From: Gammaproteobacteria bacterium
GTDB taxonomy: Bacteria; Pseudomonadota; Gammaproteobacteria; Pseudomonadales; Halieaceae
NCBI GenBank assembly: GCA_030426545.1
Contig: JAUHYL010000008.1
Coordinates: forward strand, 1-64,000
Direction of reading: 5' to 3'
Length of the DNA: 64,000 bases
A model generated the notes under the pieces. The model ran no database searches, had not been told where the DNA came from, and saw only the letters and a program-made list of their open reading frames with translations. Below are positions 8,691 through 40,591 of the stretch, in pieces (the first letter of the stretch is position 1; every line of letters begins with the position of its first letter). The position numbers and the translations under genes were made by a program.

Positions 8691-9911
8691 CTAACGGCCT
8701 GTGGAAGCGCGTCGCTTGCGTCTGGTCTTCGTCGCGCGAGGCGCCGGTTTCGAGCGCTGTGCCAGCCAATCCGCACTCTGCGCCCACACCGCCGTGGTGG
8801 CCTTGCCGCCAATAATCACCCCCATATGGCCGCCGGGGGCAACCCGAAAGTCCTTATCGCGCGACGCGATGATGTCGACGATACCTTCGGCGACCTCCGG
8901 CGCTACCAGCTTGTCACCCTCCCCTGCAAAGCCGAGAAAGTTGCAGGTGATCTTGTCCAGTTCCGCCACCGAGTCACCGAATTCGACGCGGCCTCCTGCG
9001 AGTTGATTGCCACCGACTACCTTCACCGCCATATCGCGCAGCACGCCGCCGGGATACGACAGCATATTGTTCAGGTAATCAGACGTGGTGGAGTGTGATT
9101 CCACAAACTCGCGATCGTACAGGCGCGTCATCAGGTCAAAATACGTGGTCACGCTGCTGAGCGGGTCGGTCAACTTGAACGTCAGCGTGGTCAGCCAGGG
9201 CGGCGTCGCGAGCAACGCAGGATCGACCGTGTCCAGCAACAGGTTGGAATAGCGGCTTGCCAGCTGACCGGGGCCGCTAAGCGCATGCGCGATATTCGCC
9301 ACACCCGCGATCACACCGCTGCCGCTCTCCAGGTCGATGGGACTGGCGACGGTGACGATATTGCGTACATTGCGGTCGCGCGTCTGACCCTGGTACAGAA
9401 GGCAGAACAGGCCGCCCATACACCAGCCCATCAGGGAGACGTCCTTGCAGCCGGAGTGCGCGCGCACCTTGTTCAGCGCCTCTCCCATCATGTCACGCGA
9501 ATAATCCGCCAGGCCGAGGTGGCCGTGCTTTTTCTGCGGCTTGCCCCAGTCAATCAGGTACACCCTGAAGCCACGGGCAACCATGTACTTCACCAAACTG
9601 CGCTGCGGCAGCAGGTCAAAGGTTTCGGTGGTGACGCCCAGCGGCGGCACCAACACCAGCGGGACGGCGTGCTGTTTGCGCTGAATGGGCATCTCGGTGC
9701 CGTCGGGTAACTCGATGCTGTCTTCGTCCGGCAATTCGTAATAGCGCACCGCCATCAGGTCGCTGTCATGCACCAGTTCAAACCAGGTTCTGCCTGACTG
9801 GATCAGCGTATCGCGCTTGAACAGCCAGTCGACACTGTTGGCGGCGGAGGACGCCAGACGCTGGTTTAGCGCCAGGCCGCCGGAGAGAAGTCGCCGGGTC
9901 AGGTCATTCAT
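8691..9911 (-). CDS. PHA synthase (PhaC)-like alpha/beta hydrolase
   Basis: 'VSLMGWCMGGLFCLLY' lipase-box-like motif with Cys, 'VYLIDWGKPQKKHGHLGLADY', C-terminal 'GGHMGVIIGGKA'. Confidence 0.8.
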   Translation of the reverse strand: MNDLTRRLLSGGLALNQRLASSAANSVDWLFKRDTLIQSGRTWFELVHDSDLMAVRYYELPDEDSIELPDGTEMPIQRKQHAVPLVLVPPLGVTTETFDLLPQRSLVKYMVARGFRVYLIDWGKPQKKHGHLGLADYSRDMMGEALNKVRAHSGCKDVSLMGWCMGGLFCLLYQGQTRDRNVRNIVTVASPIDLESGSGVIAGVANIAHALSGPGQLASRYSNLLLDTVDPALLATPPWLTTLTFKLTDPLSSVTTYFDLMTRLYDREFVESHSTTSDYLNNMLSYPGGVLRDMAVKVVGGNQLAGGRVEFGDSVAELDKITCNFLGFAGEGDKLVAPEVAEGIVDIIASRDKDFRVAPGGHMGVIIGGKATTAVWAQSADWLAQRSKPAPRATKTRRKRRASTGR

Positions 9912-11308
9912 GCTGAACGTCTCCGCTTGCCGAGTAACTGCTCCAGGTCATCCACCGCCAGACCGGTATAAACCGCCAGGCGCTGCAGGTGCGGCAGCGT
10001 ATCGCGGGCGCCGGTAAAGCCGATGTTCAGGCTACCCGCGTAGTTGACACAATCGATACTCAGTGCGTTGTACTGGAATAGCGGGTTCATGGGGTAAATC
10101 GCTTCCAGGCGCGCGCCAGCGCAGTAGCGCGCAGTTTTTGAGCCCGGCGTATTGGAGACCGAGAGATTGAACAGCGGCGGCACAAAGCGGCCCACCAGCG
10201 GCACCTGGCTTGCGTAAACAGGCGCGGAGCGCATCATGATATACGGAACCGCCGCCGCATCCGGCAGTGATTCCCTGTCCTGGCGCACCTGCTGCATGGC
10301 TAGTTTTACCGCCTGCAGGCGCTCCAGCGGATCTCCGATGTGCGTACCCAAAGCCACGCGCAAACCCGCTATCGCATTGCCCGGCAGGAGTTCGCTGCGC
10401 TCCTGCAGTGAGACTGGCAGTGCTGCAATCAGCGATTCGTCGGGCAACGCGTTGTACTCTTTGAAAAATCGCCGCAGCGAGCTGCCACAAAGGTAGGCCA
10501 GCAGGGTATTCACCGTGCAGTCCGCGCGTTCGGCCAGCGAAGAAATGCGGCGCAGGGAAAACTGCTGCGTGGCGAATCGCCGCTGGGAATTGATGCGCCG
10601 GTTCAGCGTAGACCGCGGTGTGCCGCGTGGCAGCAGAAAGCTGCCCTGGCCGTCGCGGCGCAGGTAATCGTGCAGCGCTCCGCGGGTGGCCTGCCCCAGT
10701 GACGACAGGGTTTCCATCGAATCGCCCAGGCTACCGCCCAGCGACTGCAGACTGCCCACCACATCAAAACTGCGCTCATCGCCCTCACTGAGCTCCAACG
10801 CGTGGCTCCAGAAGGGCACTACCTTGCGCGCGCTGGCGGTCGCGGCGAGCGAGTCCAGCAACAGCGGTACCGCGTTTACATTATCGATCAGCGCATGGTG
10901 AATTTTGAGGTAGAACGCGAACCGGCCGCGCTCCAGCCCCTCAATCAGGTGAAACTCCCATAGCGGACGATTGCGATCCAGCGGTTCACTGTGCAGGCGC
11001 GAAACCACCACACCGAGCTCGCGCTCCCCTCCCGGTTTGGGCAGGGCCGTGTGTCGCACGTGGTAATCGAGGTCGAACCCGCGCTCTTCCTGCAGGCGTG
11101 CAGCCAGCGTGCGCGCGCCGGCGTCTGCGAGACGCTGGTTCCAGGGTGGTGCGGGATCCTTGTGCGCACGCAGCGACACGATAAGGTCCTGCAGGTAACT
11201 TTTCGGCGCGTTCGCAGGCTTACTGAAAATCGCCAGTGTGCCGACGTGCATGGGCGTATCGCGCGATTCCAGCAACAGCCAGACGGCATCCAGTGGGTTT
11301 AATCGCAT
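9908..11308 (-). CDS. Wax ester synthase/diacylglycerol acyltransferase (WS/DGAT) family
   Basis: N-terminal 'MRLNPLDAVWLLLESRDTPMHVGTLAIF', catalytic HHxxxD motif 'KIHHALIDN', C-terminal 'SNTPGSKTARYCAGARLEAIYPMNPLFQ'. Confidence 0.93.
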   Translation of the reverse strand: MRLNPLDAVWLLLESRDTPMHVGTLAIFSKPANAPKSYLQDLIVSLRAHKDPAPPWNQRLADAGARTLAARLQEERGFDLDYHVRHTALPKPGGERELGVVVSRLHSEPLDRNRPLWEFHLIEGLERGRFAFYLKIHHALIDNVNAVPLLLDSLAATASARKVVPFWSHALELSEGDERSFDVVGSLQSLGGSLGDSMETLSSLGQATRGALHDYLRRDGQGSFLLPRGTPRSTLNRRINSQRRFATQQFSLRRISSLAERADCTVNTLLAYLCGSSLRRFFKEYNALPDESLIAALPVSLQERSELLPGNAIAGLRVALGTHIGDPLERLQAVKLAMQQVRQDRESLPDAAAVPYIMMRSAPVYASQVPLVGRFVPPLFNLSVSNTPGSKTARYCAGARLEAIYPMNPLFQYNALSIDCVNYAGSLNIGFTGARDTLPHLQRLAVYTGLAVDDLEQLLGKRRRSA

Positions 11309-22376: not shown

Positions 22377-23162
22377 TCACAATTGCGGCGCAGTCGGGTT
22401 TACCTTGCCGGCGCTGCTCCCGCCATCAGCGATAAACTCCGCTCCAGTGCTGTAACTGGCCTGGTCGCTGGCCAGGAAGCAGATCATGTTAGCGATTTCT
22501 GCGGGCATACCCACGCGCGGCAGCGCGGCGTCTTGATAAAAACTGCTGGCTTCCTCAACACTGATCAGGTCTGAGGCGTGCATTGTTGTATAGACACCGC
22601 CAGGATGAACACTGTTGACTCGAATTCCGTAGCGCCCCATTTCAATCGCCGCCGCCTTGGTCATACCACGCACTGCCCACTTCGTCGCAGAATAGGCGAC
22701 CAGACTGTTCATAGAGAGCAAGCCGTCGATGGATGAGACGTTGATAATGGATCCGCCGCCCGAATCCTTCATCGCGGGGAAGACACTTTGCATGCCCAGC
22801 AGCACCCCTAGCTGGTTGACCCGGACACATTGCATGAACTGCTCCTCGGTCGTGTCAACCACCGTGGCCTGGATCAGAGTGGCCGCATTGTTCACCAGCA
22901 CGGCTACCGGGCCGAGAGACTCGGCCAAATCTACAATGGCATCCCAGTCATTCTGGCGCGTAACGTCCTGCGGCTGAAAATGCACACGTTCACCGAGTTC
23001 ATCAGCCAGCGCCTGTCCCGCATCGACCAGCAGATCACCAATAACGACAACTGCGCCACTGCCGTGCAAGGCGCGCACCGTTGCCTCTCCAATCCCGCGG
23101 GCACCGCCGGTGACAATGGCCACCACGCCCCGCAGGCTGTCGTAGGTTGCCGACTGGATCAT
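22377..23162 (-). CDS. SDR family oxidoreductase
   Basis: 'VAIVTGGARGIGEATVRAL', 'VLVNNAA', 'YSATKWAVRGMTK'. Confidence 0.92.
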   Translation of the reverse strand: MIQSATYDSLRGVVAIVTGGARGIGEATVRALHGSGAVVVIGDLLVDAGQALADELGERVHFQPQDVTRQNDWDAIVDLAESLGPVAVLVNNAATLIQATVVDTTEEQFMQCVRVNQLGVLLGMQSVFPAMKDSGGGSIINVSSIDGLLSMNSLVAYSATKWAVRGMTKAAAIEMGRYGIRVNSVHPGGVYTTMHASDLISVEEASSFYQDAALPRVGMPAEIANMICFLASDQASYSTGAEFIADGGSSAGKVNPTAPQL

Positions 23163-23230
23163 AGCTGTTCCCCTGAACTGACGTAGAAGAGAATCATCGT
23201 GAAACTCCCGTAACCGGTGCAGGCATGCAC

Positions 23231-24100
23231 CTACTGAAAGTGCGGAAAAATGTCAGCGGCAAACTGCCTGATCCCGTCGACTTTCTGTTCCAGCGTCGGG
23301 TTGTCGCCGTGGTAGAACAGCCATGGCATGGTCAGCAGATGCGTGACTCCGCCCGCGGCGAGGCGCCGATACCCGTCCACTTCCCAGGCATCGGATGCGG
23401 ATGCCATCACGGAGAAATCCTGCTCGCCTCTGCCGTACTCCTGCCTATAGCCATTGATCGCTGCAACGGTATCAATAATCTCATCGCTGCTTTGCAGGTC
23501 CGACAACCAGCCGTCGCCCAGGCGCGCGGCGCGCCGATGGGCGGCACTGGATATCCCGCCTACCCAAATGGGGATATGAGCCCGTGGCGCAGGGTTCATC
23601 TCCAGGCGATCAAACTGGTAGAAATCGCCCTGAAAATCTACCATCTCACCGGTCCACAAGCGTCTTAGTATCTCGATCATCTCGTTGCAGCGCTTACCGC
23701 GGTTGTGGAAGTCCTGCTCCATCAGCGCATACTCGTCTTTGCTCCAACCGACACCAATGGTCAATGTCACGCGATCTCCAGACATGGCGGCCGCAGTAGC
23801 GACCGCTTTGGCCACCAGGAAGGGGTTGCGGATTGGCAATACAAACACGTTATTGGTGAAGTGGATACGCTTGGTGACTGCCGCGCACGCACCGATTGCC
23901 ACCCACGGATCCGGCCAGTCTGTGAAGGCCTCCCAACGGCGCTGCCCGTTTTCGGTATACGGGTAAGGGTTGCTGATCGTTTCCGGATGGACGATGTGAT
24001 CCGAGAAGGAAATCGCATGCCAGCCCGACTCATCAGCCGCACGTGCCAGCGGAATCAGTTCGTCTACTTGGTTGAACGCCATGGGAATCACAAATTTCAC
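23231..24100 (-). CDS. LLM class flavin/F420-dependent oxidoreductase
   Basis: 'MKFVIPMAFNQVDELIPLARAADESGWHAISFSDHIVHPE', 'RVTLTIGVGWSKDEYALMEQDFHNRGKRCNEMIEILRRLWTGE'. Confidence 0.9.
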   Translation of the reverse strand: MKFVIPMAFNQVDELIPLARAADESGWHAISFSDHIVHPETISNPYPYTENGQRRWEAFTDWPDPWVAIGACAAVTKRIHFTNNVFVLPIRNPFLVAKAVATAAAMSGDRVTLTIGVGWSKDEYALMEQDFHNRGKRCNEMIEILRRLWTGEMVDFQGDFYQFDRLEMNPAPRAHIPIWVGGISSAAHRRAARLGDGWLSDLQSSDEIIDTVAAINGYRQEYGRGEQDFSVMASASDAWEVDGYRRLAAGGVTHLLTMPWLFYHGDNPTLEQKVDGIRQFAADIFPHFQ

Positions 24101-24214
24101 TACTCACCCTCCGATGTATCCGCTACAAAACCAGGCTCGCAACCAACAGCATGCGGGCCGTTATACACAGCCAAATGGCAGAACAAGAAAACCTATGGCG
24201 TTCATCCTACGAGA

Positions 24215-24238
24215 TTTGCTACGGATAACCGTAGCAAA
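24215..24238. promoter_or_regulatory. 24-bp perfect inverted repeat upstream of the LLM oxidoreductase gene
   Basis: TTTGCTACGG-ATAA-CCGTAGCAAA. Confidence 0.5.
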
Positions 24239-24306
24239 AAACCGGGTGATTCATACCCTCGGTGTTCACGCTGGCAGAGTACCAGCGCCCCCTCACCCGA
24301 CCGAAT

Positions 24307-26673
24307 CTAGAAGAAGTGGTACCGCAGGGAAGCCCCGTAGCGACGCCCGGGAACGTGGTCGAGCAAGCTCATCATCCCTGGGCTGCTCAGTGTGACGTTG
24401 GTGAAAAAAATGTCATCTTCGTTCTCGATATTCTCCACGAAGAGTTCAACCTGGTAGTGGCCCGACGCGCTAGTCCATTGTGTGCGGAAATCGGAGAGCG
24501 TATGTGATTTCACTTCGTCTATACCAAGATTCTGCGGACGTGCATAGAAACTGTCGCGGTAGGTCGAGCGCAGTGTGAACAGCAACTCACCGCTATCCTG
24601 CAGGGCAATTGTGTACTGACCAGTGAAACTTGCCGACCACTCGGGAGCATCTGGTAGATCATTGCCTGACAGATCCTGCGGCTTCTCCTGTGAACAACCG
24701 GGGTCCGCGTCTGTCGAGGGCGCGTAGGGATCCTGCGCACAGAAGTCCTCAAACTCACTGGAAAGATAGCCCAGGGACGCCGTCAACATAAGATTGTCCA
24801 ACGGCAGGTAGCGCAGATCGGCTTCGACACCAAAAATTGAAGCGTCGGCAGCATTTTCAACCAGGGGCAGTGCATCCAACAACTGCGTGATCTGTAGATC
24901 CGTGTAATCGTAGTAGAAGGCTGCGGCATTGAATTGCAGTGTGTTCTCCAGCCAGCGAGACTTCAGACCAACCTCGTATGCATCCAGTAATTCGGGCTCC
25001 ACCTTGCCCACATCACCACTGGCGATCTGTTGCAGCTTGCCGGCCTTGTATCCCCTGGAATATTTCGCATAAACCATGGCAGCGTCACTCAGTTCCCAGC
25101 GGGCACCAAATTCACCCGTGGTTTCGGAGAAGGATTCGTCTCCCTCGAACGCACCGGCGCCGATGTCCAGTGCCAGTGGGAATGACGCGCCGGGGGAACC
25201 AATGGGAAATGCCGTGGTGGTATTGAGCACTTGTTCGCCGGAAAAGGCCGTCTCATCCCAGTTCTGACGCACACCACCGAAAAGAACTATCCCCGTCGCA
25301 CCTTCAAAAAACCGCCCCAGATCCGCTTCGAGGTTGAGATACACGGCACTGGCTTTATTATCTGTGCTTTGTGGTGATGTGCCTGTCAATGATATCGCCA
25401 GGCCACTGTCCAGCGCGGTCCCTTCCAGCGCAACCTCAACGTCCATGTCGAATTCTGAATAGAACGCTCCAAAAATCCATTGCACCGCCTGATCACCAGC
25501 CGAACTGAACCGAAGTTCCGCCGTCGCCTGCTCCCGCGAGAACGCATTGAACGTATCGAGCAGCGGCAATTCGGTGCCATCAGAATCGACAAGAATATCG
25601 TTTTCGCTATCGCTGTATCCCGCTATCAGAAATACTTCGGTATCCCCCAGGCCGGCAAAATTCTCGAGACGCCAGGTCAAGTCTCCATCGATTCTGTTAA
25701 GTTCAGCGCCGCCCTGATCCAGAAATTCCGACCTCGTAACAGAGACATTGCGGCCTATAATATTCGAGTTGACCTCACGTACGTCATCGTTGGATATCGC
25801 ACTGCCGCCAAGAGATTCCAGTAGCCCGCTCTGACGGATTTCAATGGGGACAGAGTTAACCTGCGCATTCTTGTTGTCTTTGGAATAGATGTAGCGCAAA
25901 CCCGTTGACACATCGTCGGTCAGGTCCGAGGTCAGATACAGACGGTACCACTCCCGCTCGCGGGCATTGGGGTCATTGTCGTCTGACGCAGACAAATTGT
26001 CGTAGGTTGCGGCTCGGTCGTCGTAAGCAAATGCCGCCCGCGCAAGCAACTTTCTGCCAGCTATCGGTGCATTAACAAAGCCTCGCAGTAGCTGTCCATC
26101 GTCTCCGTCTTCCACTTGATACCATTGGTAATCCAGGGAACCGCCCCATTCTTCTTCCGGCTTCTGCCAGCGCACATCAATGGCACCCGCGGTCGCATTA
26201 CGGCCAAATACTGTGCCCGATGGACCACGCAACACTTCGATCGAAGCGATATCGTAATAGGGAAACGTAACACCCGTTTCCGCGATAAACAGGCCGTTCT
26301 CATGTTGCGCAACGGGCTGAGGCGCATTACTGCCTTGAAACCCTGCCGCTGCAACACCCCGGATACTCAGCTTCTCCGGGGTTTTTGCAACCACATTGGG
26401 AATATTGTTTGCCACGTCAGCCACGCTTAGTATGTTCAACTCTTCGACAGTGCTTCTGGCAAGTGGCACAACGGAGGACGCGATGTCCTGTAGCGACTCC
26501 TCGCGTTTTGATACAGTAACGAGAACTTCTTCAAGCACACGCTCTTCGCCCTCGTATTGGTACCGGGCACCAGACTGCGCCTGTGCAGGCAGGTTGGTCA
26601 GCGCACCTGCGCCAATGGCAAATGCGGTGAAAAGGGACGTTCTTATTGAGGCTTTCATCATCGGTTCACCCAT
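24307..26673 (-). CDS. TonB-dependent receptor
   Basis: Signal peptide, plug 'IEVLRGPSGTVFGRNATAGAIDV', C-terminal 'RYGASLRYHFF' beta-barrel end. Confidence 0.95.
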   Translation of the reverse strand: MGEPMMKASIRTSLFTAFAIGAGALTNLPAQAQSGARYQYEGEERVLEEVLVTVSKREESLQDIASSVVPLARSTVEELNILSVADVANNIPNVVAKTPEKLSIRGVAAAGFQGSNAPQPVAQHENGLFIAETGVTFPYYDIASIEVLRGPSGTVFGRNATAGAIDVRWQKPEEEWGGSLDYQWYQVEDGDDGQLLRGFVNAPIAGRKLLARAAFAYDDRAATYDNLSASDDNDPNAREREWYRLYLTSDLTDDVSTGLRYIYSKDNKNAQVNSVPIEIRQSGLLESLGGSAISNDDVREVNSNIIGRNVSVTRSEFLDQGGAELNRIDGDLTWRLENFAGLGDTEVFLIAGYSDSENDILVDSDGTELPLLDTFNAFSREQATAELRFSSAGDQAVQWIFGAFYSEFDMDVEVALEGTALDSGLAISLTGTSPQSTDNKASAVYLNLEADLGRFFEGATGIVLFGGVRQNWDETAFSGEQVLNTTTAFPIGSPGASFPLALDIGAGAFEGDESFSETTGEFGARWELSDAAMVYAKYSRGYKAGKLQQIASGDVGKVEPELLDAYEVGLKSRWLENTLQFNAAAFYYDYTDLQITQLLDALPLVENAADASIFGVEADLRYLPLDNLMLTASLGYLSSEFEDFCAQDPYAPSTDADPGCSQEKPQDLSGNDLPDAPEWSASFTGQYTIALQDSGELLFTLRSTYRDSFYARPQNLGIDEVKSHTLSDFRTQWTSASGHYQVELFVENIENEDDIFFTNVTLSSPGMMSLLDHVPGRRYGASLRYHFF

Positions 26674-26740
26674 CTTGTTTCGCTGTTTGCATTAGGCAGG
26701 CTATGGTGTGCCCTGGAGGGCCATGTAGGTTTTTGCGCTA

Positions 26741-27520
26741 TCAGGGCATATACTCCCCGCCGTTGACATCCAGACTGGCGCCAGTCACAGCGCGCGACAG
26801 AGGTGAGGCAAAAAACAGTACAGCGCCCGCGCAATCCGCATCTTCGGGAATGTCTCCCAACGGTATGCCTGATGCCACTTCAGCCCTGAGGTCCGCAAGC
26901 TCGCAACCACGCGCCTCAGCAGCCACTGTCAGGCTACGTTCAACCGCATCACCCCACATCCAGCCCATCATCACAGAATTGACACGTACACCGTGCGGCC
27001 CCAGCTCAACGGCGAGCGACTTTGACGCCGCACTCAATGCGCCCTTGGATGCGACATACGCGCTCTGGTTGGGCAAGGGTTTACGCACCACCATGGAATT
27101 GACGTTGACAACAGAAGCGCTGGATGAGGCTTTCAAATGCGGCAATGCAGCCCGGATCAGGCGCAGTGCACCGAAAAGATTGACATCCAGTGGGGCCTGC
27201 CAGGTGGAAAAGTCGGCTTCATCGAAAGGTTCGTAAGGCCCTGGGTCGTAGGCAGAATTGATCAGCACATCGATACCGCCAAACCTGGACACTGCTTCAC
27301 TGATCAGGTGAGCGCATTGTTTATCATCGGTAACATCGGTAACGACTGCATGCAGCCGACCCCGCTCACTTTCCAACTGGTTACCCAGATCGTCCATGAA
27401 CGCCTGACGCCTGCACGCCATCACCACGTTCGCGCCCTGCGCAAGCGCAGCGCGCACCATTTCTTGACCGAGCCCCGGACCAACGCCGGAAATGACTACA
27501 ACCAGACCGTCAAGCAGCAT
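26741..27520 (-). CDS. SDR family oxidoreductase
   Basis: 'VVVISGVGPGLGQEMVRAALAQGANVVMACR', 'VLINSAYD', 'YVASKGALSAASKSLAVELGPHGVRVNSV'. Confidence 0.92.
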   Translation of the reverse strand: MLLDGLVVVISGVGPGLGQEMVRAALAQGANVVMACRRQAFMDDLGNQLESERGRLHAVVTDVTDDKQCAHLISEAVSRFGGIDVLINSAYDPGPYEPFDEADFSTWQAPLDVNLFGALRLIRAALPHLKASSSASVVNVNSMVVRKPLPNQSAYVASKGALSAASKSLAVELGPHGVRVNSVMMGWMWGDAVERSLTVAAEARGCELADLRAEVASGIPLGDIPEDADCAGAVLFFASPLSRAVTGASLDVNGGEYMP

Positions 27521-27522
27521 GG

Positions 27523-28071
27523 TCAGCCGCCCTCCCCGTCCAGTTTCATGGGCGCCATTTCCCTGGCTTCTGCTTCACGCGCCGCCAGCGTCGCCAGGTA
27601 GTCTGCACTTTGGGCGTCCCAGGCCTCCTTGGCTGCTTTCCAGGATTCCATACCCTTTTCCAGTTCGATCGGGTTAAACACGGTTTCCACATAGTGGAAC
27701 ATGCCTTCGCCACGGTACTTCAGGAGTACGAACATACGACCCTGGTGAACGCTGCCGTCACCTGGATCGGTGAATCTCGCCCACCACAGGGACCACACCC
27801 AGGCCCTATCCTCATCGATTGCGTAATCTTCCACCGGGAAACGATTGAGTCTCACCCAGGGCGTTTCACGGGTCTGGTGCATGACATCACTGACCGCGGT
27901 CAGAATACCCTCACGCTTACCACGGCGCCCCAGCACACAGCAGTAGAGGGTCGCATCGGGTGCCAGCGCCTTGCCGAACTCACTCCAATCGGTGCTGCGA
28001 GCCGCCCGGTTAAGCGCATCGTGGTAACCCCAGAATGCGTTGTCGATTTCTTCACGTGTAAACTTGCTCAT
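27523..28071 (-). CDS. NTF2/SnoaL-like family protein
   Basis: 'MSKFTREEIDNAFWGYHDALNRAARSTDWSEFGKALAPDATLYCCV' alpha+beta cone-fold pattern; paralogous to the next gene. Confidence 0.75.
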   Translation of the reverse strand: MSKFTREEIDNAFWGYHDALNRAARSTDWSEFGKALAPDATLYCCVLGRRGKREGILTAVSDVMHQTRETPWVRLNRFPVEDYAIDEDRAWVWSLWWARFTDPGDGSVHQGRMFVLLKYRGEGMFHYVETVFNPIELEKGMESWKAAKEAWDAQSADYLATLAAREAEAREMAPMKLDGEGG

Positions 28072-28075
28072 CAGG

Positions 28076-28663
28076 CTATTTCTCCGACTCGAGAGGGATT
28101 TCTGCGAACTCTCGGGCTTTAGCCGCCTGCTCTGCCCGACGCTGTGTGTCGGCTACAGCACTCTCTTTGTGCTTGTTCCACACCGGCAGCCAACGCTCCA
28201 TCATGTCGAGGAATTCCTGCGGGTTGTACACGTCCTCTTCATAGGAAAACTGGCCGTTTCCTGCGTACTTGAACAAATTGAAGCAGTTGGACTGGTGTAC
28301 CGAGCCGTCGCCGGGATCATCCATCCGGTTCCAGATCAAGGCCCACACCCAGCCGCGCTCCTCATCAATGAAATAGGCTTCAACCGGATACTGGTTACAC
28401 ATTACCCAGGGATCGGAGACTACGCCGTTATCCCGCGTTTCCTCGGCCAGCTCCTCGTTTCCGCTCAGGTGCATCACTGCGCTCATGTTGCGAACAATCG
28501 CATCACGCCCAGCCCACTCGCCGAGGTTTCGCTCGATGTACGTACAGTTTTCAGTAAACATGTTGCCCCAGATCGACCAGTCGCCGGAGCGCGCTGCCTT
28601 TAACCCTGCCTCCTGATATTTCTTGAAGGCATCATCAATCTCTTCCCTACTCCATCGCGGCAT
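28076..28663 (-). CDS. NTF2/SnoaL-like family protein
   Basis: 'MPRWSREEIDDAFKKYQEAGLKAARSGDWSIWGNMFTENCTYIERNLGEWAGRDAI'. Confidence 0.75.
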   Translation of the reverse strand: MPRWSREEIDDAFKKYQEAGLKAARSGDWSIWGNMFTENCTYIERNLGEWAGRDAIVRNMSAVMHLSGNEELAEETRDNGVVSDPWVMCNQYPVEAYFIDEERGWVWALIWNRMDDPGDGSVHQSNCFNLFKYAGNGQFSYEEDVYNPQEFLDMMERWLPVWNKHKESAVADTQRRAEQAAKAREFAEIPLESEK

Positions 28664-28694
28664 GGCATTCCTCCTTGAGGGCGGCCTGTTTATT

Positions 28695-28720
28695 ATATGA
28701 ATCTGTATTCAGGTTCATAT
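28695..28720. promoter_or_regulatory. Candidate TetR operator (26-bp imperfect palindrome)
   Basis: ATATGAATCTGTATTCAGGTTCATAT, 11 of 13 pairs complementary, between divergent NTF2-like and TetR genes. Confidence 0.6.
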
Positions 28721-28769
28721 TATAGCGTGCTAGTATTTTGTCAACACAAAGAACCGGACCCCAATCAGC

Positions 28770-29420
28770 ATGCACGCGAAACGAAAAACACAGGCCAGGA
28801 AAGACCTGTACGAACCGAAACAGAAGCGCAGCCGCGAGAAGTACGAGCGCGTTATTCGCGCAAGCTACGCGCTGGCCTCCGAGGTAGGTTTCGAGGGCCT
28901 GACGCTGGCCAAAATCGCAAAGCGGGCGGGTATTGCACCCAGCACCGTCTACACCCGATTTGAAGACAAAGAGGCACTGCTGCACGTGCTGCATACCAAA
29001 GCCACGGAACAGAGCCTGCAGGAAATTTCCACTGCCTTTGAGCGGCTGCGTCAAGAGGACATGCCTTTGAAGGACATACTGAAGGCAACGATAGAGCGCT
29101 CGCTGCAGATCACCGACGAAATCGCCGGCTTTCAAAAGGCCTGTTACCAACGCGCCCTGTCCGACCCGGTTTTCGCTAAACGCGAGGCCACCGTTCGTGA
29201 AACGCTCAAGCAGCATGTGCAAGAGTTATTCGAAGAACGCCGAAGTGAAATCGGACACAGCAACATCAACATTTGCGCCCAGTTTTTTGTAGCGATGTAC
29301 ACCAGTGTTATCACTGAGCATTTCATGACGCGGGATTTTCCCGTTGAGTCCATGAGCAATAAGCAGGTCGCGCGTGAGTTGGTGTCTGCATGCGCTGCCT
29401 ATCTCAAGCTGGAGGACTAA
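28770..29420 (+). CDS. TetR/AcrR family transcriptional regulator
   Basis: 'RVIRASYALASEVGFEGLTLAKIAKRAGIAPSTVYTRFEDKEALL' HTH. Confidence 0.93.
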   Translation: MHAKRKTQARKDLYEPKQKRSREKYERVIRASYALASEVGFEGLTLAKIAKRAGIAPSTVYTRFEDKEALLHVLHTKATEQSLQEISTAFERLRQEDMPLKDILKATIERSLQITDEIAGFQKACYQRALSDPVFAKREATVRETLKQHVQELFEERRSEIGHSNINICAQFFVAMYTSVITEHFMTRDFPVESMSNKQVARELVSACAAYLKLED

Positions 29421-29422
29421 CC

Positions 29423-29896
29423 ATGCAAGATACGATTGTCTCGCACGTGGGTATTTGCACCCAGGACATCAACCGATCTATAGCGTTCTACCGTGGCGCG
29501 CTCGGATTTACGGAGGTCAGCAAGACAGCTGTTGGCCCTGAGATTGGGCCATTGATAGAAATCGACTCGCCGCAACTTTACCTGCGTTCACACTTTCTGG
29601 AGCGTGAACATTTCAGGCTTGAGCTGATGCAGTTCGATCACCCGCCCGCGGAAGGCAATGACTCGCCAGACGCTTTCAACACGCTCGGCCTGACGCACCT
29701 GGCAATTCGTGTCGAAGACATTGAACAAACAGCCGAACTTGCCGAGAAGTTCGGAGGTCGAGTACTTTCCCATACAGAAGTCTCAGAAGAATCATTGGGC
29801 GTGAAGCTGATCTATATACTTGATCCCGACGGCGTTCGTATCGAGTTGATGAAGGTTCCCGGAGACCCCAGAGTCGCACCCGGGGAGCCGGTTTGA
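29423..29896 (+). CDS. VOC (glyoxalase/dioxygenase) family protein
   Basis: 'VSHVGICTQDINRSIAFYRGALGFTEV', 'LTHLAIRVEDIEQTAELAEKFGG', 'YILDPDGVRIELM'; start at MQDTIV. Confidence 0.92.
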   Translation: MQDTIVSHVGICTQDINRSIAFYRGALGFTEVSKTAVGPEIGPLIEIDSPQLYLRSHFLEREHFRLELMQFDHPPAEGNDSPDAFNTLGLTHLAIRVEDIEQTAELAEKFGGRVLSHTEVSEESLGVKLIYILDPDGVRIELMKVPGDPRVAPGEPV

Positions 29897-31282: not shown

Positions 31283-31405
31283 GAGCGGACATCAGGTGTT
31301 GCTTGAGAACCCCGAAGAAATCAGATATTCACCGGGCGGCTACCAGTACCAGATGTTAGAGTGGCGTCACACTCAGCCCCCGGTCGAACCCCAGGATACC
31401 GCAGC

Positions 31406-32227
31406 ATGAACAACACCCGTAGTGATCTCAACCTGGCCCTCTTCTGCGATTTCGAAAATGTTGCGCTGGGGGTCCGTGACGCCAAATTCCCCAAGTTTGA
31501 TGTCCAGCTTGTGCTGGAACGGGTCTTGCTGCGCGGCAGCATCGTGGTCAAAAAGGCCTATTGCGACTGGGATCGTTACAAGGACTTCAAAGCAGTGATG
31601 CACGATGCCGCGTTCGAGCTGATAGAGATCCCGCACACTCGCCAAAGTGGCAAGAACTCCGCCGATATCCGCATGGTCGTCGACGCCCTGGACCTGTGTT
31701 ACACCAAAGAGCATATTGATACGTTCGTCATCATTTCCGGGGATTCTGATTTTTCCCCACTGGTCAGCAAGCTGCGCGAGAACGCCAAGGTTGTTATAGG
31801 GGTGGGCGTCAAAAATTCAACTTCGGATTTACTCACGCATAACTGTGATGAGTTTATTTACTACGATGACCTCGTCCGCAATGAATCCACGGCCAAAAAA
31901 ACCAAGCGCAAATCTTCAAAGCCCAAAACCACCAGGAAAAGTGCCAAGCCAGGCAACAGCAATACCGAAGAGGGTTCCATGGACGAGGCGATAGCGCTGA
32001 TCCTGGAGACTGCCGAGGATCTGCTGGCGGATTCGGGTGATCGGGACAAGCTCTGGGGCTCAATGGTGAAACAAACCATCAAACGCCGCAAACCCGGGTT
32101 CAACGAACGCTTCTACGGTGTCCGCTCCTTCAGCGACTTGCTGGAGGAGGCTGAAAATCGCGGACACCTCAAGCTGCAACTCGATGAGCGATCCGGGGGC
32201 TACACTATCGAACTTGCGGAGCAATAA
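31406..32227 (+). CDS. NYN (PIN-like) domain protein with C-terminal OST-HTH/LOTUS-like domain
   Basis: 'LALFCDFENVALGV', 'NSADIRMVVDALDLCY', 'TFVIISGDSDFSPLVSKLRENAKVVIGVG'; basic linker; 'LWGSMVKQTIKRRKPGFNERFYGVRSFSDLLEEAENRGHLKL'. Confidence 0.88.
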   Translation: MNNTRSDLNLALFCDFENVALGVRDAKFPKFDVQLVLERVLLRGSIVVKKAYCDWDRYKDFKAVMHDAAFELIEIPHTRQSGKNSADIRMVVDALDLCYTKEHIDTFVIISGDSDFSPLVSKLRENAKVVIGVGVKNSTSDLLTHNCDEFIYYDDLVRNESTAKKTKRKSSKPKTTRKSAKPGNSNTEEGSMDEAIALILETAEDLLADSGDRDKLWGSMVKQTIKRRKPGFNERFYGVRSFSDLLEEAENRGHLKLQLDERSGGYTIELAEQ

Positions 32228-36373: not shown

Positions 36374-36478
36374 TATGCGCACTCTAATAGAATCTGTCGT
36401 AATGACGCGAGATATGTAGGAGTTTGATACTCCCTGCAGGATAACAACGTCGGGGACCAGCCAGTGAGGGGACGGGGC

Positions 36479-38758
36479 ATGAATGACCTGGTGCTACCGC
36501 AACAGTTTCAGGCCAGAATTCGCAAAACGCAGCGCAAGCTGGGCTTTTCGCCGCGCTCCAGACGTTCAGTGCGCATCGAGGAAGCCTCGGGCATGCGCGT
36601 CAGCATTTCATCTGATCTCCCACACGCTGCCGATCACTGCGCCAGCATTTTCGAGAAGAACTACCTGCTATGGCGCGACCGGGATCGCTACGCCGCATGG
36701 GGCCAGTATAAACGCCAGCATTACACGGTTGCCGTGGGCGGCGGCAATACGCTCAAAGCCCAGTACCAGGCCATGGTCGACAAGCTACACTCGCGCGTGG
36801 ACTGGATACACCATGTGCGCTTTTTTTTCCTGGAAGACTCCTCCGGCGAAGGTAAATGGGAAAGCCCGCAGGACGGGCTCATCAACAGCTTTCTCACGCC
36901 ACTGGTACGCAAGCTTATTATTCATCGCGGTATGCGCCCGCTGGCCAGGACGCTGGAGCTCGGCGATCAGGCAGACCCGCACGAAATCCTCGAAGAGCTG
37001 ATCCGGCGGGTGGTCAACCCGATGGATATGAGCGAGGTCCGCAGCGCCCTGAGGCGCAAGAACAATCGCGAGGCCATGCGCCTGGCGAAGGAAGAAGCTG
37101 CTCGCTATGAACTGGATATTCAGCACAAGCTGGGCGGGAGTATGTCTTTTCACCATATCACCAGCGGCATCGGCAAGGATGGCGCGCTGGGAGCCCTTAC
37201 CCCCTACCTGCCGGCATTGAGCGAAACCGACCCCGGCGTAATCGCGATCAAGCGAGATAAGGGCGCCATACGCGTGGCCCTGAATCGAGGCGTTTTTACC
37301 AACGCCGAGCGGGTTTCACTTATTGTATCGGGCACCCACAAGCTACGCGCCCTTGGCCGCCTTGAGATGGAAGAAACCGCCAACTTTGAACAGACGGTGA
37401 TGGAAACGCCGCTGCGACTATTGCGGGCCACGCGCGATATTGGCGAACGCGTACAGGTATTCGCCGACGAGCAGTCGCTGCATTTCGAGGAAACGCTTTT
37501 TCAGTTCAAGGAGAAGGGTCAAACGCTGCAAAACAAGGCGGAAACCCGGGAGGGGCAGGAAAAACAGGGCACGCATATCCTGCTGATGCACGGCTTCATG
37601 GGCCTGTTCAGCTTCGCCAGCTTTCTCATTCGCCTGCCCAGCGCATGGACCGTGTCGGCATTGCACCGTGGCAGCTATGCCAAAACGCTGCCCGAAGCCG
37701 AAATATTCCCCTACTACGCGCGGGTGCTGCGCAAATGCATCCTCAAGCTCTGGAATCAGGGCCACCCGGTTCCCATCGCTGGACATTCCATTGCGGGCAT
37801 TATTATCGATCACTTGTTGCTCTCGGTGCTCGACGACTACGACGCGCCCATCAAACCCTACGCGCAGTTGAAGGAGCAGGATAAAAAACTGGTCGATGCC
37901 ATGCGCGCGTCAGGCATTATCAGCCTCGCGACCTGGGCGCCGTCTGATGCGCCACACACAGCCGCTAATATCCGTAACGTCTTGTCTCACTACTTCAAGA
38001 AGGAAGAACTGGACTACACCGGCTTCGATCGGGTTTACCGGGAGCCGGGCCGCGAACTCGAATTGGTGCCCGAGGCAAACATCTCGGACGCAGACAGCCT
38101 GGGGCGGCTGGGCCGCTTTCTCGACACGCCCATAGCCGAGCCCATCGTCAACAGCTTCAATGGCGTGTTGCGCCAGCTGCTGAACAACAAGACCGTACAG
38201 CAGCGTATGTTGAACATAAACAGCCCCTACGTGCTGCGCCTGGTGGGAAGCAGGCTGCTAAAGACCGCCTCCTTCTACGGCTTGTTCAAGGAGGTCAACG
38301 CTGCGCTGCACAACCCGGTGGAATATCAGCGCCGACATTTGAAAGCGCTGGACATGATGGTTGAGTACGACATCCCCACGCTGTGCATCATTCACGAGGA
38401 CGATTTCCTTGTCTCCGCGCGCCGACACTCGGAAGAGCATCAACACCTGGTGGCGCTGCGCCTGGAGAAAGAAGGCGTAGAGCGGGAAAGAGACCTGGCG
38501 GTGACCACCCGCATGGTCACACTGCGACGCAGCAAAGACGAGCTACCCCTGGATCCGCTTAATCCGCACTTGCTGGTGATGTCTACTTCTAACGAGGGCG
38601 TGACCATGGCGCGCCAGGTAACCGCGGCGATGACGCGCTTCGTCAACGAAAACCTCGAGAAGGCGATCGCCAGGCGGCGCATCAAAGCACTGCCCAGCGT
38701 GCGCAAGTGGCGCGCCAAATACCCGTTACCCAAAGCGCGGCGCGGTAAAAGCCAGTAA
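36479..38758 (+). CDS. Putative fusion: sugar-phosphate isomerase/6-phosphogluconolactonase-like N-terminal domain + alpha/beta hydrolase
   Basis: N-terminal 'VAVGGGNTLKAQYQAMV ... VRFFFLEDS ... FHHITSGIGKDGALGALTP ... RVSLIVSGTHKLRALGRL'; C-terminal 'HILLMHGFMG', 'PIAGHSIAGIIIDHLL', 'IPTLCIIHEDDFLVSARRH'; start at ATG after GAGGGGACGGGGC. Confidence 0.7.
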   Translation: MNDLVLPQQFQARIRKTQRKLGFSPRSRRSVRIEEASGMRVSISSDLPHAADHCASIFEKNYLLWRDRDRYAAWGQYKRQHYTVAVGGGNTLKAQYQAMVDKLHSRVDWIHHVRFFFLEDSSGEGKWESPQDGLINSFLTPLVRKLIIHRGMRPLARTLELGDQADPHEILEELIRRVVNPMDMSEVRSALRRKNNREAMRLAKEEAARYELDIQHKLGGSMSFHHITSGIGKDGALGALTPYLPALSETDPGVIAIKRDKGAIRVALNRGVFTNAERVSLIVSGTHKLRALGRLEMEETANFEQTVMETPLRLLRATRDIGERVQVFADEQSLHFEETLFQFKEKGQTLQNKAETREGQEKQGTHILLMHGFMGLFSFASFLIRLPSAWTVSALHRGSYAKTLPEAEIFPYYARVLRKCILKLWNQGHPVPIAGHSIAGIIIDHLLLSVLDDYDAPIKPYAQLKEQDKKLVDAMRASGIISLATWAPSDAPHTAANIRNVLSHYFKKEELDYTGFDRVYREPGRELELVPEANISDADSLGRLGRFLDTPIAEPIVNSFNGVLRQLLNNKTVQQRMLNINSPYVLRLVGSRLLKTASFYGLFKEVNAALHNPVEYQRRHLKALDMMVEYDIPTLCIIHEDDFLVSARRHSEEHQHLVALRLEKEGVERERDLAVTTRMVTLRRSKDELPLDPLNPHLLVMSTSNEGVTMARQVTAAMTRFVNENLEKAIARRRIKALPSVRKWRAKYPLPKARRGKSQ

Positions 38759-38888: not shown

Positions 38889-40112
38889 ATGACTTTCCTC
38901 TACCGACTCAGGGCGTATATCGCCGTCATGATGCTGCGCTATCTACCGCGCAATACGCCCATCGTATATTCCGGGGCCGGGTCGTCCCTGCAGCTGGTTG
39001 AGCAGCTGGCTTTACTGGGCCTGAACAAAGTGCTGGTCGTAACCGACGAGTTTCTGCATAACTCGGGATTGCTGAAAGAGGTACTGGAGGCCCTCAACGC
39101 CCACCATATCGCGTTCGAAATCTACGACGGCGTGCTACCCGACCCGAGCTTCGACCAGGTACAAGCTGGCGAGGCGCTCTACCGATCCACAGACTGCCAG
39201 GGCGTCTTTGCCATTGGCGGCGGCTCGGTGCTCGATGCCGCCAAGCTACTGTCTATTCTGCACACCAATCCGCGCACGCTTGCACAGTTTTTGCCCGCGC
39301 AGCGCTGTAAAAATGCCGGGGTACCCCTGTTTGCCGTACCGACCACTGCCGGTACGGGTTCGGAAATCACGCCCGTGGCAGTCATCACCGACCAGGAAAC
39401 ACACCAGAAGACGGCAGTGGTCGACACCAGGATGATTCCAGGCCATATCGCCCTGGATGCGGCAATAATGCGCACCATGCCCCCGGGCGTGACGGCCGCA
39501 ACCGGCATGGACGCACTGACGCACGCGGTAGAATCCTACTTGAGTCGCGGCTCCAATGAAGCCACGGAAAGACAGGCGGAGGCCGCCACCCGGCTGATCT
39601 TCAAACACCTGCCCACCGCCTGCAAGAACGGTGACGACCTGGTCGCAAGGGACGCGATGGCAACAGCAGCATTCTACGCAGGATCAGCATTCAGCCGCAC
39701 GTCGGTGGGCTACGTACATGCTATCGCGCATCAACTCGGAGCAATTTGCGGAACGCCCCACGGCAACGCCAATGCCATGGTCCTACCCGAGGTACTGACC
39801 GCCTATGGCGATTGCGTGCACGACCGGCTGGCCCAGTTGGCGAACAGGTGTGGTTTTGCAGGTGAGGGGCGTACTGAAGCTGCTGTCGCCACTGAATTTA
39901 TCAGCGCCATTGTAGACATGCGCGCAAAACTGGAGCTGCCCATTCTGCCGCGTGGGTTGCGGGATGAACACGTCACCGGCGTGGTCAAGGAGGCCATTCG
40001 GGAAACCGGCGAGCTGTATCCGGTACCGCGCTACTTCTCCGCCCAGGAAATTGAGCGCATCGTGCGCGGCCTGCTGCCGGCTTCACAACCGAAAACGACT
40101 GAATTGAACTGA
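38889..40112 (+). CDS. Iron-containing alcohol dehydrogenase
   Basis: 'GVFAIGGGSVLDAAKLL', 'AVPTTAGTGSEITPVAVITDQETHQKTAVVD', 'GMDALTHAVESYLSRGSNEATER', 'GYVHAIAHQLGAICGTPHGNANAMVLPEVL'. Confidence 0.95.
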   Translation: MTFLYRLRAYIAVMMLRYLPRNTPIVYSGAGSSLQLVEQLALLGLNKVLVVTDEFLHNSGLLKEVLEALNAHHIAFEIYDGVLPDPSFDQVQAGEALYRSTDCQGVFAIGGGSVLDAAKLLSILHTNPRTLAQFLPAQRCKNAGVPLFAVPTTAGTGSEITPVAVITDQETHQKTAVVDTRMIPGHIALDAAIMRTMPPGVTAATGMDALTHAVESYLSRGSNEATERQAEAATRLIFKHLPTACKNGDDLVARDAMATAAFYAGSAFSRTSVGYVHAIAHQLGAICGTPHGNANAMVLPEVLTAYGDCVHDRLAQLANRCGFAGEGRTEAAVATEFISAIVDMRAKLELPILPRGLRDEHVTGVVKEAIRETGELYPVPRYFSAQEIERIVRGLLPASQPKTTELN

Positions 40113-40174
40113 CTCCGGAAACGGTTACCAAAGCACGAATCCACAAGACACTGACTAATAAGAGATGATTGAAT

Positions 40175-40591
40175 ATGGCGAATAAATTTTCCGCAGCCGA
40201 CTTTCTCATACGCTGGCTGTTTGCACTGGTGTTGGTGTTCGGGACCTACAACCCCACCGACTATTGCTACATCAGCTGGGTATCGGGTTCGGAGTTTTCG
40301 GTTACGCCACTCATGGCGCTGGTAGGGATTACTATTCTCATAGGCTGGATCATCTACCTGCGCGCCACGGCACTCTCGCTGGGTGTTCTCGGCGTGTCGC
40401 TGTTCGCCGCACTGTTCGCCTGCTTCATCTGGCTATTCGTAGACCTGGGTTGGTTGAGCCTGGAGAACACCGGCGCGATGACCTGGATCGTGTTGGTACT
40501 GCTGTCGCTGGTTCTGGCGATGGGTATGTCATGGTCACACATACGCAGGCAGATAAGCGGCCAGGTGTCTACCGACGACCTGGAAAACTGA
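40175..40591 (+). CDS. Four-TM membrane protein, DUF6524-like
   Basis: 'FLIRWLFALVLVFGTYNPTDYCYISW' followed by hydrophobic segments. Confidence 0.6.
   Translation: MANKFSAADFLIRWLFALVLVFGTYNPTDYCYISWVSGSEFSVTPLMALVGITILIGWIIYLRATALSLGVLGVSLFAALFACFIWLFVDLGWLSLENTGAMTWIVLVLLSLVLAMGMSWSHIRRQISGQVSTDDLEN

Follow-up and report, generated by a model that had tools for sequence, protein, structure and literature searches.

A Halieaceae protein family joining a degenerate 6-phosphogluconolactonase-type domain to an alpha/beta-hydrolase: a candidate ligand-regulated esterase

A gene found in a 64,000-nucleotide stretch of Halieaceae DNA (referred to as the window) encodes a 759-residue protein in which a 6-phosphogluconolactonase (PGL)-type domain is fused to an alpha/beta-hydrolase domain, and this two-domain architecture is well supported. 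Such a fusion had been suggested in a preliminary description of the sequence and was borne out by profile searches, by AlphaFold2 models compared with Foldseek and by the recovery of a conserved family. All the motifs quoted in that description were located, namely GGGNTLKAQY (aa 87-96), FFFLED (aa 115-120), GIGKDGALGALTP (aa 230-242) and RVSLIVSGTHKLRAL (aa 278-292) in the N-half, and LLMHGF (aa 368-373), GHSIAG (aa 435-440) and HEDDFLVSARRH (aa 639-650) in the C-half. Both folds are known and their combination in one protein appears to be undescribed; no description of this architecture was found in open-access papers, an absence which is no proof of novelty. An alternative GTG start of the reading frame lies at 36464. 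The full-length AlphaFold2 model has a pTM of 0.49, so that the relative placement of the two domains in it is unreliable.

36479..38758, plus strand: fusion gene, 759 aa, from ATG to stop (stop codon included)
36566..37438, plus strand: PGL-type NagB/RpiA-fold domain lacking the catalytic His, about aa 30-320 (PF01182, Foldseek)
37442..38755, plus strand: alpha/beta-hydrolase domain, about aa 322-759, with a helical lid at about aa 540-630 (AlphaFold2, Foldseek)

Relatives were obtained by a genome search combined with an alignment-based scan. At the order level, proteins with both halves were found in 9 of 392 genomes, host included, one of them being cut by a contig end. Within the family Halieaceae the fusion was present in 24 of 140 genomes and in 7 of the 28 sampled genera, one sequence consisting only of a C-terminal fragment from a short contig. 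The 23 named loci belong to Haliea, Halioglobus, Pseudohalioglobus, Seongchinamella, HTCC2148, a Spongiibacteraceae MAG and a few unclassified MAGs, and each of two genomes carries two copies. The N- and C-halves were joined in every complete relative found, and identity among the 24 aligned sequences goes down to 42-45%. The dN/dS ratio, about 0.1-0.2 in both halves, indicates purifying selection, the N-half evolving somewhat faster than the C-half. The recurrence of the gene in these genomes and named loci, together with its dN/dS values, rules out an assembly artefact. With a 24-sequence profile, no C-half was detected beyond the host among 274 genomes sampled at class level or 200 at phylum level (the samples overlap), and no fusion was found by a single-sequence scan of genome contigs and viral contigs or by tblastn of plasmids and phages. 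The fusion is a conserved Halieaceae family with a few relatives. A full-length copy (locus L024), adjoining a cytochrome P450 gene and an acyl-CoA ligase-type gene, was recovered from a MAG labelled Myxococcota; it branches within the fusion family and may result from horizontal transfer or from misbinning of the MAG.

In the Pfam search the N-half matched PF01182 (Glucosamine_iso/6-phosphogluconolactonase) with E=2.9e-13 and 50.7 bits against a 27-bit cut-off, and all 24 relatives matched the same family (E<=1), so that its likeness to PGL is not due to chance. The pLDDT of the full-length model is around 90 across much of aa 50-230, and Foldseek matched the modelled N-half to PGL 3tx2 (TMt 0.76, E 1.3e-7) and to NagB structures, in line with the PGL/NagB fold initially proposed. 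Sequence searches of the PDB returned weak PGL matches only for this half, the best one being 1y89 (DevB/PGL). ATP-synt_DE_N and other weak Pfam matches, as well as PPR or FKBP matches in PDB profile searches, were discarded as chance or repeat-driven.

36737..36757, plus strand: GGGNTLK loop, aa 87-93, corresponding to the SGGSTPK ligand loop of PGL, with GGGNT and K93 invariant
37184..37186, plus strand: Ala236, at the position of the PGL catalytic His (GxGxDGH) in the alignment

In a published comparison of PGLs, the active-site residues comprise GGQTP, the His of GHTAS, an Arg and a Lys, and the substrate-binding Arg and Lys are R656 and K679 in the Trichomonas protein (PMC7402283). Replacement of the catalytic His, already noticed in the window protein, extends to all 24 aligned members, in which position 236 is occupied by A, T, G, S, Q or D and never by His. 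The Arg of the PGL DER motif is likewise changed to S or T in all of them. GGGNT, K93, E119, R270 and K288 are invariant across the 24 members, and R265, which aligns with an Arg in the substrate region of PGL, is kept in 20 and lost in 4; the correspondence of R265 and K288 to the PGL Arg and Lys derives from a profile alignment to 1y89, not from a superposition. The domain has thus lost the PGL catalytic residue but retains much of the pocket. Because R265 is lost in these four members and the DER Arg is replaced, its ligand might be something other than a sugar phosphate. Overall, the N-half shares with 6-phosphogluconolactonase (PF01182/TIGR01198) the fold, the GG.T.K loop, the GxGxxG region and, by alignment, the conserved Lys, but differs from it by the two missing residues, by the attached hydrolase and by a TIGR01198 score of 36.2 bits, far under the equivalog cut-off of 124.45.

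The C-half was modelled from 26 members (pLDDT 79.6, pTM 0.82) and displays the strand order of an alpha/beta-hydrolase. Foldseek returned hundreds of matches at E<0.001, those listed including esterases, lipases, monoacylglycerol lipases, dehalogenases, epoxide hydrolases and a deacetylcephalosporin C acetyltransferase; matches to viral structures were generic hydrolases only. The hydrolase fold predicted from the motifs was therefore recovered, although with TM scores of only about 0.4-0.6, a probable consequence of the large and dissimilar lid. No Pfam family matched this half at E<=1 and no meaningful match was obtained against PDB sequences; it is a hydrolase subfamily unmatched in Pfam.

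37787..37789, plus strand: Ser437, predicted nucleophile in the GHSIAG elbow (H436, S437, A439 and G440 invariant)
38402..38404, plus strand: Asp642, predicted catalytic acid after beta7, in HEDDF (invariant)
38567..38569, plus strand: His697, which follows beta8 and is the predicted catalytic His (P696-H697 invariant)

S437, D642 and H697 follow beta5, beta7 and beta8 in the model and are invariant in the aligned members. The preliminary description had placed both the acid and the His in the late HEDDF-SARRH region. D642 of HEDDF is indeed the likely acid; as for the His, the model points to H697 (NPH), after the last strand, as the likely catalytic residue rather than the SARRH His (H650), which is likewise invariant. 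The C-half shares the fold, the nucleophile elbow, the Ser-Asp-His order and the presence of a lid with esterase E22, Acinetobacter lip1 and ABHD6, but no similarity in sequence could be detected with Pfam or the PDB; compared with known esterases and lipases, the first Gly position of its elbow is variable (G/C/F/Y) and its lid is large and different.

The genes following the fusion in the window were assigned by Pfam and synteny.

38889..40112, plus strand: iron-containing alcohol dehydrogenase, downstream of the fusion (PF00465, E=6.4e-46)
40169..40591, plus strand: DUF6524 small membrane protein, second neighbour (PF20134, E=9.6e-51)

The iron-containing alcohol dehydrogenase (iron-ADH) gene is the next gene after the fusion in 10 loci, the window among them, and in the window it is the sole metabolic neighbour downstream, the nearest wax-ester/TAG synthase (WS/DGAT) gene being about 25 kb off. 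The DUF6524 gene, placed after the iron-ADH gene or straight after the fusion, is convergent with exopolysaccharide genes; its product, often encoded beside the fusion or the ADH, is a possible partner. In one clade (loci L029-L031) the fusion leads a run of BNR/YCF48-like, MMPL, DUF1302 and DUF1329 genes accompanied by WS/DGAT or acyl-CoA ligase genes, and L020, which falls outside this clade, has WS/DGAT, BNR-type, MMPL-type and DUF1302 genes within a few kb downstream of the fusion. The BNR-MMPL-DUF1302-DUF1329 operon headed by the fusion resembles a lipid-export operon. A comparable RND gene set, AmeABCD, is an efflux system of Castellaniella linked to monoterpene metabolism (PMC6394551), and DUF1302/DUF1329 genes were reported to be essential for Tween 20 metabolism in Pseudomonas putida (PMC10866462). 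In one subclade (L013, L023 and L032), a luciferase-like monooxygenase gene lies immediately upstream of the fusion. No defence or phage context was apparent.

Several other regions of the window were also annotated. At 8694-11308 (minus strand), a WS/DGAT gene is directly followed by a gene for an Abhydrolase_1 protein, with which no kinship of the fusion C-half was detected. Positions 22380-29893 encode SDRs, a luciferase-like monooxygenase, a TonB receptor, a TetR-like regulator and a glyoxalase-type protein, and look like a catabolic cluster; among its products are two small proteins that resemble each other in sequence (27526-28663). Positions 31361-32227 (plus strand) encode a putative RNase, a NYN-domain protein whose C-end weakly matches OST-HTH/LOTUS.

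At least one WS/DGAT gene was present in 24 of 24 fusion genomes and at least 7 in the host. The median was 12 genes in fusion genomes versus 1 in family members lacking the fusion (p=2e-13; a per-genome count of 17 stands for at least 17). The association was also seen when WS/DGAT genes were counted per Mb, among genomes of 3.3 Mb or more with one or more of these genes (p=7e-8), and with genus means (p=2e-4); for the genus to which the window belongs p was 0.06. These p-values ignore phylogeny, and the association is confounded by phylogeny and genome size.

We tentatively favour, at somewhat under even confidence, the reading that the fusion protein is a ligand-regulated serine esterase or lipase (possibly an acyltransferase) of neutral-lipid or hydrophobic-ester metabolism, with a non-catalytic N-domain. 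The N-domain would be a former 6-phosphogluconolactonase-type domain which has lost the PGL reaction and binds a phosphorylated metabolite, and this metabolite would tune the C-terminal hydrolase. The C-domain would be a cytosolic enzyme of the serine esterase/lipase type, possibly an acyltransferase, acting in the turnover of wax esters/TAG or other hydrophobic esters; the alcohol and fatty acid set free might then be used by the neighbouring iron-ADH or acyl-CoA ligase. The computed support consists of the folds of both domains, the absence of the PGL His, the conservation of the ligand loop, the intact triad, the fusion itself, the neighbours and the number of WS/DGAT genes, from which we infer activity, substrate, ligand, regulation and cellular location. 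Degenerate NagB-type domains act as phosphosugar sensors in SorC regulators (PMC11229326). The N-half resembles the effector-binding domains of SorC/CggR as a degenerate domain of the NagB superfamily, sensing being known in these regulators and proposed in the fusion; in contrast to them, where the domain controls a DNA-binding domain, it is nearer to PGL and attached to an enzyme.

The main rivals to a ligand-regulated esterase are a scaffold N-domain and an acyltransferase C-domain. If the N-domain were a mere scaffold, serving oligomerisation or partner binding without ligand, the hydrolase would be unregulated; the loss of the PGL catalytic His and DER Arg and the somewhat faster evolution of the N-half agree with this, but a scaffold would have no need for the GGGNT-K pocket loop, K288 and R270, invariant in 24 sequences as divergent as 42-45% identity, and we regard it as rather unlikely. 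The invariant acidic and basic residues (E119, K93, R270, K288) could instead serve another, His-free catalysis on a phosphorylated substrate, the C-domain performing another step. Metabolic enzyme fusions are indeed common, for instance G6PD::PGL (PMC3148214), and G6PD::6PGL proteins likewise carry a PGL domain within a natural fusion, but with another partner and with the PGL catalytic residues retained (PMC7402283). Since the His of both PGL and the host NagB motif is gone and no neighbour gene obviously uses sugar phosphates, a bifunctional enzyme seems quite unlikely to us. It is highly improbable that the protein stands in for a missing PGL as the lactonase step of the oxidative pentose phosphate pathway: the host genome (98% complete) contains no detected PF01182 protein besides the fusion, its NagB being encoded elsewhere with a canonical GANGH motif, but G6PD was likewise undetected in it, so that the host probably has no such pathway for the PGL-like domain to serve. 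The missing PGL His and the low TIGR01198 score also speak against this role, as does the occurrence of family members with and without G6PD genes; G6PD being present in most other fusion-bearing genomes, the fusion does not track that pathway.

As regards the C-domain, an enzyme resembling deacetylcephalosporin C acetyltransferase might modify a lipid or an alcohol rather than hydrolyse an ester. This acetyltransferase is among the best Foldseek matches and acyl-CoA ligase genes are neighbours at some loci, but many esterases and lipases appeared at similar E-values in the same search, and hydrolase and transferase are inseparable by fold alone; we consider a transferase unlikely. Of the two functions initially suggested for the protein, no specific support was found for a glycolipid-modifying enzyme, and a sugar-phosphate-regulated lipase/esterase is plausible, with indirect support from the kept ligand loop, the intact triad and the lipid-metabolism context.

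Returning to the ligand-regulated esterase, a worn PGL pocket joined to an intact esterase-type half in WS/DGAT-rich Halieaceae may point to an esterase under sugar-phosphate control. That a sugar phosphate gates the esterase or lipase through the pseudo-6-phosphogluconolactonase domain, coupling central-carbon status to storage-lipid turnover or export in marine Halieaceae, is a speculative extension which we consider doubtful. We know of no description of such control in bacterial wax-ester/TAG mobilisation, and how marine bacteria time the storage versus the burning of wax esters and triacylglycerols is, to our knowledge, poorly understood. For the fusion proteins, an automatic annotation '6-phosphogluconolactonase' would be a wrong label, and the analysis provides a concrete hypothesis for two families, the C-half hydrolase and its DUF6524 neighbour. 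If the proposal is true, a sugar-metabolism pocket and a serine hydrolase carried on one polypeptide would provide a direct and testable link from sugar metabolism to lipid storage.
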